Origin: Paramesorhizobium deserti
GTDB taxonomy: Bacteria > Pseudomonadota > Alphaproteobacteria > Rhizobiales > Rhizobiaceae
Length of the DNA: 64,000 nt
Assembly: GCF_001558695.1 (NCBI RefSeq)
Contig: NZ_LNTU01000012.1
Coordinates: 186,001 to 250,000, forward strand
Direction of reading: 5' to 3'
The translations under genes and the position numbers were made by a program. Under the pieces are notes generated by a model that was not told the DNA's origin, made no database searches, and was given only the letters and a program-made list of their open reading frames with translations. Below, in pieces: positions 24,626 to 27,526 of this stretch (position 1 is its first letter; every line of letters begins with the position of its first letter).

Positions 24626-25630
24626 TCACGCCACCTTCTTCAGTTCGGTTGTCTGCGAGCCACCGGAAAGGGCCTGCCGCAGTTTCTTGATGACAATGGC
24701 CGGATCGGTTTCGGTCATGATCGCGGCCCGCGTCTCCGCCGGGAGATCGCCGGCATGGCGGTCGAGATACCAGCCAAGATGCTTGCGCGCATGGCGGGTG
24801 CCGGTGGATGGGCCATAATGCTCCAGCATCGCTTCATAATGCGCGATCACATAATCGCAGATTATGTCCGGTCTTGCGGTGTGTTCAGTCAATCCACAGG
24901 CAATCATGCCGGGGAGCCAGGGCTGGCCGTAGCAGCCGCGACCAATCATCACGGCATCCGCGCCGGAGCGGCGAAGGATCTCTTCGGCATCCTCTGACGA
25001 GAGGACATCGCCATTGGCGACGAGCGGAATGTTGACCGCCTCACGCACGGCGCGGATGGCATCCCAATCGGCCTTGCCTTCATAGAACTGGCAGCGCGTG
25101 CGGCCATGCACCGTAACCATGCGTACGCCTGCCTCTTCGGCGCGGCGCGCCAGTTCCGGCGCGTTGATGCTGTGCTCGTCCCAGCCGAGCCGCATCTTCA
25201 GGGTGACGGGTACGTCAACCGCCGCGACTGTCGCTTCGATCAGCGCCATCGCGTGGTCGAGATCGCGCATCAGCGCCGATCCGGAATAGCCGCCGGTCAC
25301 CTTCTTGGCGGGGCAGCCCATGTTGATATCGATGATATGCGCACCCTCGGCTTCGGCAATGCGGGCGGCCTCGCCCATCCAGCGGGCGTCGCGCCCGGCG
25401 AGCTGCACCACATGGGTTTCAAGCCCCTCGCCTTTCATACGCATCAGGCTTTCGCGATCGCGCGAACATAGCTCCGCGCTCGCCACCATTTCGGAAACTA
25501 CCATGCCAGCGCCGGCAGCCCATGCCAGCTTGCGAAACGGCAGATCGGAGACGCCGGACATCGGCGCCAGAAACACCCGGTTGCGCAAACGGACATCACC
25601 TACGTATAAAGCCTCGCCTAGTATAGTCAC
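24626..25630 (-). CDS. dusB: tRNA-dihydrouridine synthase DusB (NifR3)
   Basis: DusB, 334 aa, an FMN enzyme that reduces uridines in the D-loop of tRNAs. The TIM-barrel start LAPMSGVSDLPFR and the catalytic Cys106 in NMGCPAKKV are present; HGRTRCQFY and ANGDVLS bind FMN and tRNA. It was historically named nifR3 because it heads the ntrBC operon, as here. It is divergent from ispDF across about 170 bases. Confidence 0.95.
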   Translation of the reverse strand: MTILGEALYVGDVRLRNRVFLAPMSGVSDLPFRKLAWAAGAGMVVSEMVASAELCSRDRESLMRMKGEGLETHVVQLAGRDARWMGEAARIAEAEGAHIIDINMGCPAKKVTGGYSGSALMRDLDHAMALIEATVAAVDVPVTLKMRLGWDEHSINAPELARRAEEAGVRMVTVHGRTRCQFYEGKADWDAIRAVREAVNIPLVANGDVLSSEDAEEILRRSGADAVMIGRGCYGQPWLPGMIACGLTEHTARPDIICDYVIAHYEAMLEHYGPSTGTRHARKHLGWYLDRHAGDLPAETRAAIMTETDPAIVIKKLRQALSGGSQTTELKKVA

Positions 25631-25802
25631 GCTAGTGGTATGCCTGTTTCATGTGCATTTTTCCCGTCGCACAGTCTTTAGACAGGATGAGGTCTTTCCG
25701 CAAGGAAAAGCAGCGTTATCAATGAAGGATATTGATTCCCGTCTGGCGTTTGGACGTGACAGGCTTTAGAGCGGAAAATATGACACAGAAGGCAGTAAAA
25801 CC

Positions 25803-26996
25803 ATAAAAGTAGCAGCCGTAATTGTCGCAGCCGGCCGCGGGGAACGGGCGGGACAGAGCACCGAGGGGCCGAAGCAATATCGGCGGATCGGCGGCGAAGC
25901 CGTGCTCTCGCGCACGCTGCGGGCGTTTCTCGATTGTCCGCATATCGACCGGATCGTCTCGGTGATCCATCCGGAAGACCGGCATCTCTATGAACAGGCG
26001 ACTGGCGCGCTGGGCGCGAAGACGATCACCGTCATCGGCGGTCCTACCAGGCAGGAATCGACCAGGCTCGGCCTGCTGGCGTTGATCGAGCACGAACCCG
26101 ATTACGTCATGATCCATGACGGCGTGCGTCCGTTCATCGCGCAGGAGCTTCTGCAGCGCATCGTCCACACGCTGCATCCGGCCATCGGCGTGCTTCCGGC
26201 GCTCGCCGTTTCCGATACGCTGAAGCAGGCAGGACCGGATGCGCATGTGACCGCCACCGTGCCGCGCGCGGGTCTTTATGCGGCGCAGACGCCGCAGGCC
26301 TTTCCGTTCGCCCCGATTCTCCATGCGCATGAGGCCGCCTTCCGCGCCGGCCGCTCGGATTTCACCGATGACGCGGCGATCGCCGAATGGCACGGTCTCG
26401 CCGTGCGCGTCGTGGAAGGGTCCGCTGACAACACCAAACTCACCTGGGCGAAGGATATCGAAATGGCCGACAAGCGTTTTGCTCAGGGTTCAGGCGGCTT
26501 TCCCGACATCAGGACCGGCAACGGCTATGACGTCCACGCCTTCGAACCGGGCGATCATGTGACGCTGTGCGGCGTGGAAATACCGTATACGCTGAAACTC
26601 TCCGGCCATTCGGACGCCGATGTGGGATTGCACGCGTTGACCGACGCGCTGCTCGCGACGCGGGGCGCCGGGGATATTGGCACGCATTTCCCTCCCTCAG
26701 ACCCGCAATGGAAAGGGGCGCCCTCCCGCATTTTCGTCGAGCATGCGGTTAAACTCGTCCGGGAGGCGGGTGGCCGCATTGCCAATGCGGACATCACGCT
26801 GATCTGCGAAGCGCCGAAGATCGGTCCGCATCGCGAGGCGATGACCGCCGCCCTGTCGGATATGCTGGGCATCGCTCTGGATCGCGTCTCGATCAAGGCG
26901 ACGACGAACGAGAAGCTGGGCTTCGTCGGGCGTGGTGAAGGCATTGCCGCAATCGCCACAGCCACCGTCATCTATCCCGGCGAGGTGCCGGAATGA
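25803..26996 (+). CDS. ispDF: bifunctional IspD-IspF isoprenoid enzyme (start abnormal)
   Basis: Fusion of IspD (2-C-methyl-D-erythritol 4-phosphate cytidylyltransferase, about residues 1-225) and IspF (MECDP synthase, about 236-397) of the non-mevalonate isoprenoid pathway. IspD shows [13 protein letters not shown] and IHDGVRPF; IspF has the metal ligands Asp243, His245 and His277. The open frame begins after a stop at 25767-25769 and has no ATG, GTG or TTG before a GTG at 25902, which would remove the nucleotide-binding loop. I place the start at ATA 25803 (AGAAGG 10 bases upstream); alternatively, the real start is ATG 25780 with one base missing in the A run at 25797-25800. cinA overlaps by ATGA. 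Confidence 0.85.
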
Positions 26997-27526
26997 GCAT
27001 GATAGCGGAGGAGAAGGCGACCGCCGTGCTCGACGCCTGCCGCCGGGCGGGCATCATGCTCACCACTGCCGAATCCTGCACCGGCGGCCTGATCGCGGCG
27101 GCGCTGACTGACATAGCGGGATCGTCCGACGTGGTCGATCGCGGCTTCGTCACCTATTCCAACGAGGCGAAGCAGGAGATGATCGGCGTCCCTGCCCTGC
27201 TCATCGCCAGGGTTGGCGCGGTGTCGAAAGAAGTGGCGCTCGCCATGGCCGAGGGGGCACTTGCGCATTCGCGCGCGGGGGTTTCGGTCGCGGTCACCGG
27301 CATCGCCGGGCCGGGCGGCGGCTCTGAGGAAAAGCCGGTAGGCCTCGTCCACATCGCGGCGATGCGGAAGGATGGCGCGACACTTCACCGCGAATGCCGG
27401 TTTGGGGATATCGGGCGCGACGGCATCCGCCATGCGACAGTGTTGGCGGCGCTGGAGCTTGTGCTGAAATCCCTCCCAGCGTCATCCTCGGGCTTGACCC
27501 GAGGATCCACGGCTGAGGAGCGCTGA
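26993..27526 (+). CDS. cinA: CinA-family nicotinamide-nucleotide amidohydrolase
   Basis: Stand-alone CinA C-terminal domain (PncC type), 177 aa. Such enzymes deamidate nicotinamide mononucleotide to nicotinate mononucleotide in NAD recycling. [15 protein letters not shown] at residues 26-40 and [16 protein letters not shown] are the family motifs. The ATG overlaps the ispDF stop. The last 15 or so codons are read through a palindromic repeat (27481-27513), so the C-terminus ([14 protein letters not shown]) is repeat-derived and not conserved. Confidence 0.92.
27481..27513. repeat. palindromic repeat A, copy 1 (inverted)
   Basis: 33-base repeat with perfect 9-bp arms ATCCTCGGG (27484-27492) and CCCGAGGAT (27498-27506) around CTTGA. 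It is the reverse complement of copies 2 and 3, with one base different from copy 3. It lies inside the 3' end of cinA. This type is scattered between genes in many alphaproteobacteria. Confidence 0.85.

Follow-up and report, generated by a model that had tools for sequence, protein, structure and literature searches.

The bifunctional ispDF gene of a Phyllobacterium-like genome probably starts at a non-standard AUH codon that is held in four related genera

The ispDF gene, an essential bacterial gene of isoprenoid synthesis, appears to be intact in the window (the whole 64,000-nucleotide stretch of DNA that was analysed) and to start at a non-standard AUA codon, ATA 25803-25805 on the forward strand, a reading to which a probability of about 0.93 is assigned. 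It is drawn from sequence comparison: no standard start codon is available, coding constraint begins at this codon, an AUH codon (AUA, AUU or AUC) is held at the same site in four genera and a Shine-Dalgarno sequence lies upstream at a usable spacing. The arrangement thus has the look of a weak start kept over a long time, and not of an error in sequencing. The original prediction had proposed this ATA, with AGAAGG upstream, as one of two explanations, and comparison with relatives supports it well.

The ispDF frame and its start in the window's genus

The ispDF frame opens after TAG 25767-25769 and is uninterrupted from 25770 to 26996; read from the ATA, the coding sequence (25803-26996, forward strand) comprises 397 residues including the initiator Met. 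The protein matches the bifunctional IspDF family NF006899 over its full length from the codon after the ATA, scoring 531.4 bits against a curated cut-off of 417, and contains both the IspD (PF01128) and the YgbB (PF02542) domains of Pfam, while in the relatives sampled beyond the four genera an ATG, GTG or TTG is available at the start. It is 93% identical to the IspDF of P. phragmitis (L009, from genus genome G003), and the window genome is Phyllobacterium-like. Solved structures of IspDF, IspD and IspF exist and are uninformative on the start. Re-reading of the frame bears out the observation that no ATG, GTG or TTG occurs between the stop at 25767 and GTG 25902-25904, which is followed by GTG 25962. 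GTG 25902 lies behind the conserved loop motif; a protein beginning there would lose this motif and score 167.3 bits against TIGR00453 (NCBIfam ispD), compared with 207.4 bits from the codon after the ATA and a cut-off of 181.3. It is therefore regarded as an internal Val codon and a false start, and the importance attributed to the region ahead of it is upheld. As in infC-type AUH genes, no ATG, GTG or TTG is available at the start of the protein, both in the window and in its genus.

The alignment of this 5' region with close relatives, which had been suggested as a check, covered the six genomes of the genus including the window's own, and shows an ATH codon at the site in all six: ATA in four (the window's own genome, G005, G003 and G002), ATC in G004 and ATT in G001, with ATG in none. 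Over the 22 codons upstream all six lack a standard start, and in five the lack extends back to the in-frame stop, the exception being P. phragmitis (G003, L009) with an in-frame ATG 28 codons upstream. The Shine-Dalgarno-like AGAAGG is present at 25787-25792 on the forward strand, 10 nt before the ATA as previously described, and its AAGGC is kept in 6/6 genus genomes approximately 10 bases before the site. The mean pairing with the 16S tail across the genus is strongest for 8-mers ending 4-10 nt before the start, with a peak at 7, and in one of the six genomes the best single pairing window lies elsewhere.

The onset of coding constraint coincides with the AUH codon in the window's genus, in the Brucella genus and in Bartonella, the fourth genus (g96) showing too little variation for this comparison. 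In the window's genus pN/pS is 1.88 over the six codons upstream and 0.04 from after the site to motif codon +8; the corresponding values are 0.72 and 0.12 in the Brucella genus, and in Bartonella 0.63 and 0.20 for the 32 first sequences or 0.67 and 0.19 for all 61. Cells containing stops, which occurred solely in upstream codons, were omitted from these values. Behind the site in the window's genus third positions are variable and residues almost constant, whereas the indels that are not multiples of three are aligned before the site, where the frame also has stops. Judged by these alignments, the protein behind the site is under strong purifying selection and the frame ahead of it is not. 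A conserved internal Ile codon is likewise never ATG, so the lack of G at the site is by itself no proof of a start.

Conservation in four genera and control genes

Four sets of sequences were assembled by genus and not by codon, and distinct sequences were counted. The site is ATH in 77/77 of them, made up of six from the window's genus, 32 from the Brucella/Ochrobactrum/Falsochrobactrum genus (here the Brucella genus), seven from g96, possibly a Pseudochrobactrum-like genus, and 32 from Bartonella. All 32 Brucella-genus sequences have ATT, placed one codon further from the loop, all seven in g96 have ATT, and the first Bartonella set has ATT in 25 and ATA in seven. Matches were found in 60 genomes of the Bartonella genus, 30 of which were used as loci and one of which (G095) had been fetched earlier; the other 29 served as a held-out test, in which the site is ATH in 29/29 (28 ATT, one ATA), 28/29 have no standard start upstream and none duplicates the earlier set. 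Pooled, the distinct sites are ATH in 106/106 cases, comprising 93 ATT, 12 ATA and one ATC. The interval from the last in-frame stop to the site is free of standard starts in 5/6 sequences of the window's genus, 2/32 of the Brucella genus, 4/7 of g96 and 23/32 of Bartonella, and in four Bartonella loci (L273, L274, L338 and L345) an in-frame stop is found just one codon ahead of the ATT, which leaves hardly any room for another start. A Shine-Dalgarno sequence at usable spacing is found in all four genera, where the mean anti-Shine-Dalgarno pairing peaks 7, 5, 7 and 6 nt before the start codon.

A match was present in 194 family genomes, of which 30 entered as loci and 78 as 5' stretches; the stretches also include two from the Brucella genus. 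The short Brucella-genus loci L245 and L246 duplicate L018 and L022 and were counted once, giving the totals of 32 and 77; G203, G208 and G221, with broken or partial matches, are outside the Brucella-genus set, and Bartonella G273, which has no ispDF match, is outside its set. The ispDF matches of G203 and G208 come in several pieces with stops, and assembly quality is the likely cause given the lower completeness of these genomes (85 and 69). In the Bartonella-genus genome G291 (C1:433285-434468, with the 5' end in L345) ispDF appears as two matches covering residues 2-221 and 232-396, and IspD and IspF may be split there or their joint may be broken.

The neighbouring genes serve as controls at the same loci. 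Among 65 distinct non-Bartonella rows the cinA start is standard in 64/64 readable cases and the dusB start in 65/65, the cinA and dusB motifs being found in 0/32 Bartonella loci. Since the neighbours are always standard where readable and the odd codon of ispDF is conserved in the genus and beyond, the oddity of ispDF exceeds what chance would give. The standard example of an AUH start is infC, which in the window's own genome lies at C1:1193415-1193912 on the reverse strand (L166; other genus copies L346-L350). In 6/6 genus genomes a standard start is missing ahead of the conserved infC motif and GAGATAACGACC-ATT is retained, which fits the textbook AUU start. Two screens of 800 kb of the window's own genome for genes whose coding extends upstream of the first standard start placed ispDF at rank 20 by codon usage (693 ORFs) and at rank 7 by codon pairs (771 ORFs), an antisense ORF displacing infC in both. 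Several entries ranked above ispDF in the two screens resemble antisense ORFs by eye.

In the relatives sampled beyond the four genera a standard start codon is available to ispDF. Among 216 distinct 5' ends from the family and near relatives, without the later Bartonella sets, codons -30 to -6 contain ATG in 180, GTG in nine, TTG in 11 and none of these in 15, with one truncated, on a permissive count in which any such codon qualifies. All 15 ends lacking a standard codon belong to the four genera. The count omits L048 and L213, in which the motif was not found, and L021 was set aside as truncated; read by eye, L213 has an ATG nine codons before the motif. An order-wide sample of 61 genomes yielded 29 listed loci beyond the window's own, and of these L374 was not read and 28/28 readable loci, 26 of them from other families, have a standard start. 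It follows from the order sample and from the confinement of the 15 ends that the AUH start is likely derived inside the family, as far as these sequences indicate. In other Phyllobacterium (g63) a GGAGAG-like sequence is followed by GTG or TTG, some sixteen codons ahead of the loop and about nine codons ahead of the site homologous to that of the window (L148-L165, L016, L019, L052, L059 and L095), the homologous codon itself being ATG in 15/19 and otherwise CCG, GCG, CTG or TCG. Paenochrobactrum has TTG at the site. In a gene tree made by a quick method from 67 rows (the sets sampled at regular intervals, with 27 chosen outgroup rows) each multi-row group falls on one side of a branch and the branching order is mostly unsettled. 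The tree requires two or more switches between AUH and standard starts, and AUH may have arisen once and later given way again to a standard start.

Initiation at AUH and competing readings

Mismatched pairing allows the initiator tRNA to read AUU, AUA and AUC, and initiation at such codons is disfavoured by IF3. It is proposed that Shine-Dalgarno pairing would place the 30S subunit at the ispDF start, where initiator fMet-tRNA would read AUH with a third-position mismatch and IF3 would make the start weak, as it does at the AUU of infC. The protein would then begin fMet-Lys-Val-Ala-Ala-Val-Ile-Val-Ala-Ala-Gly. Our preferred reading is a start of ispDF at AUA, AUU or AUC that is probably weak and subject to IF3 discrimination. 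Folding of the RNA around the start gave no unusual stability in 4/4 sequences (window z -0.09), and thus no extra regulatory structure is seen.

The other explanation in the original prediction was a start at ATG 25780 that a missing A, a frameshift or slippage separates from the ispDF frame. The run of four A at 25797-25800 on the forward strand is present as it had been described, and the short frame of ATG 25780 (25780-25806, forward strand), which had been given as seven codons, in fact reads eight sense codons (MTQKAVKP) before TAA 25804-25806, overlapping the ATA. Neither is conserved, and yet the ATH is kept in 6/6 genus genomes: the four-A run and an ATG reading to the TAA at the site are common to the window's own genome, G005 and G002 only, whereas the ATG of G004 stops after five codons and G003 and G001 have no ATG there. 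A longer run would indeed bring ATG 25780 into the ispDF frame, but an assembly or base-calling error is hardly credible, since six genomes would need one shared error; the separate genomes G005 and G002 carry the identical run, and the three that differ still have no ATG joined to the frame at this position. A broken or frameshifted gene was likewise rejected, all six genomes sharing the arrangement with the frame open to its normal end and none reading through from a standard start at this position. As nothing is broken and the gene is intact, the compensation that had been invoked for a real lesion is unneeded. Programmed -1 slippage on the run could join ATG 25780 to ispDF through an in-frame AAA able to re-pair one base back in the window's own genome, G005 and G002, but in the other three, on a comparison that covered the window's genus, the ATG and the run are not both present in register, while the same ATH site is kept; a slippery run and an upstream start occur together in 3/6 genus genomes, and this reading is very improbable. 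More room is left for reinitiation, although it too is unlikely: in the window's own genome, G005 and G002 the TAA shares two bases with the ATA (ATAA), so that ribosomes finishing the short frame could restart at the ATA. G001 and G003 however lack the short frame and in G004 it is cut short, and reinitiation could add to the AUH start in three species but not replace it. The short frame is possibly a remnant or a mini-leader, and its ATG may be left over from an earlier start that made the protein longer, given that in many Mesorhizobium sequences the protein begins some 18-20 codons ahead of the motif.

The Brucella genus is the weakest case for initiation at AUH, because most of its sequences, taken alone, could start at an upstream TTG or ATG. 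In 29/32 distinct sequences the 22 codons upstream of the ATT include an in-frame ATG, GTG or TTG, with TTG at codon -14 in 25/32, and upstream pN/pS is lower than in the window's genus; a standard codon somewhere upstream also occurs in 3/7 sequences of g96 and 9/32 of the first Bartonella set. That the ATT of Brucella/Ochrobactrum is internal and the real start lies upstream is nevertheless improbable. Over those 22 codons three of the 32 sequences contain no standard start codon, the ATT is constant in 32/32 while the internal Ile codon at -1 varies (20 ATT, 12 ATC), and the purine-rich site suited to the ATT overlaps the stretch directly behind the TTG; the ATT invariance, these three sequences and the Shine-Dalgarno sequence together argue for a start at the ATT, and an upstream start here would leave the window's genus untouched. 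Why a weak start would persist is a separate matter. Selection for an enzyme level set by IF3 may have kept it in Bartonella, Brucella/Ochrobactrum, g96 and part of Phyllobacterium, a tentative proposal that we hold to be more probably wrong than right. The start may also be weak by drift only, AUH being good enough without selection for it, which is a substantial possibility short of even odds. Loss of an upstream ATG would leave the nearest AUH as the way out, and the strong Shine-Dalgarno sequence of Bartonella could make AUU sufficient. On the other hand, the one-base step to AUG is absent in 106/106 distinct sites (a count uncorrected for kinship) though it is present at the homologous codon in g63, which speaks for selection; the g63 relatives have a standard codon upstream. 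If IF3 control of ispDF by selection were true, ispDF would be a second ancient IF3-responsive gene beside infC, and the supply of undecaprenyl phosphate and quinone precursors would be linked to ribosome activity and the state of translation.

Known AUH starts and neighbouring features

The closest parallel to the ispDF start is infC, the gene of IF3, which likewise has no standard start and a conserved AUH (AUU or AUC) behind a Shine-Dalgarno sequence, in the genus in 6/6 genomes. It differs in being autoregulated by its own product, while ispDF encodes a metabolic enzyme, and we know of no link of ispDF to IF3. In E. coli pcnB has an AUU start and so resembles ispDF in having such a start outside infC, although gene and class are different. 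Bacterial genes that prefer non-AUG starts are reportedly treated in an arXiv study. IF3 is reported to repress the non-canonical starts of infC and Streptomyces sigR (GTC), and experiments have so far characterised very few start codons of the non-canonical kind (PMC5472188). The sigR start is conserved in one clade, and its annotation had been placed at a nearby upstream standard codon, both of which recall ispDF; in contrast to ispDF, whose start is read from sequence, sigR uses GTC and not AUH, has been proven by mutation and serves the balance of sigma and anti-sigma factor (PMC5472188). In Xanthomonas, peptides pointed to an ATT start for infC (PMC5559785).

Searches for ispDF with start codon, and for AUU or ATT starts, infC, IF3, Bartonella and Brucella, gave no report on the ispDF start in titles and the beginnings of abstracts of a library with few subscription papers. 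The term ispDF was not found in the main text of a Brucella proteogenomic study (PMC5442703) or of a Sinorhizobium ribosome-profiling study (PMC10117765), nor was 'start codon' found by term in the main text of a Brucella proteomics review (PMC7355872). The infC type of start is known as a kind, and ispDF as the gene and the breadth over four genera look new; databases may carry some of these ispDF starts already. An AUH start conserved in more than 100 distinct sequences of four genera, and in a metabolic enzyme that is essential, would widen the possible range of IF3 control, and the four genera would offer a natural series of AUU, AUA and AUC starts for comparison. The N-termini of IspDF in these genera, some of which include pathogens, may be misannotated.

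Downstream of ispDF lies a cinA-like gene (26993-27526, forward strand; Pfam CinA 173.5 bits) whose ATG falls within the ispDF stop at 26993-26996, an ATGA overlap which suggests that it is translationally coupled to ispDF. The weak start may, given this overlap, keep the cinA product low together with IspDF and tie both to the availability of IF3. Upstream, the divergent neighbour is a dusB-like tRNA dihydrouridine synthase gene (24626-25630, reverse strand; Pfam Dus 296.9 bits). A scan of 25560-25830 for sigma-70 promoters and terminators found nothing. Between dusB and ispDF, at 25695-25708, lies the inverted repeat TTTCCGCAAGGAAA, which is short and has GCAA as its loop; it sits in the stretch TTTCCGCAAGGAAAAGCA, which is identical in 6/6 genus genomes, and is possibly a regulatory or RNA element.
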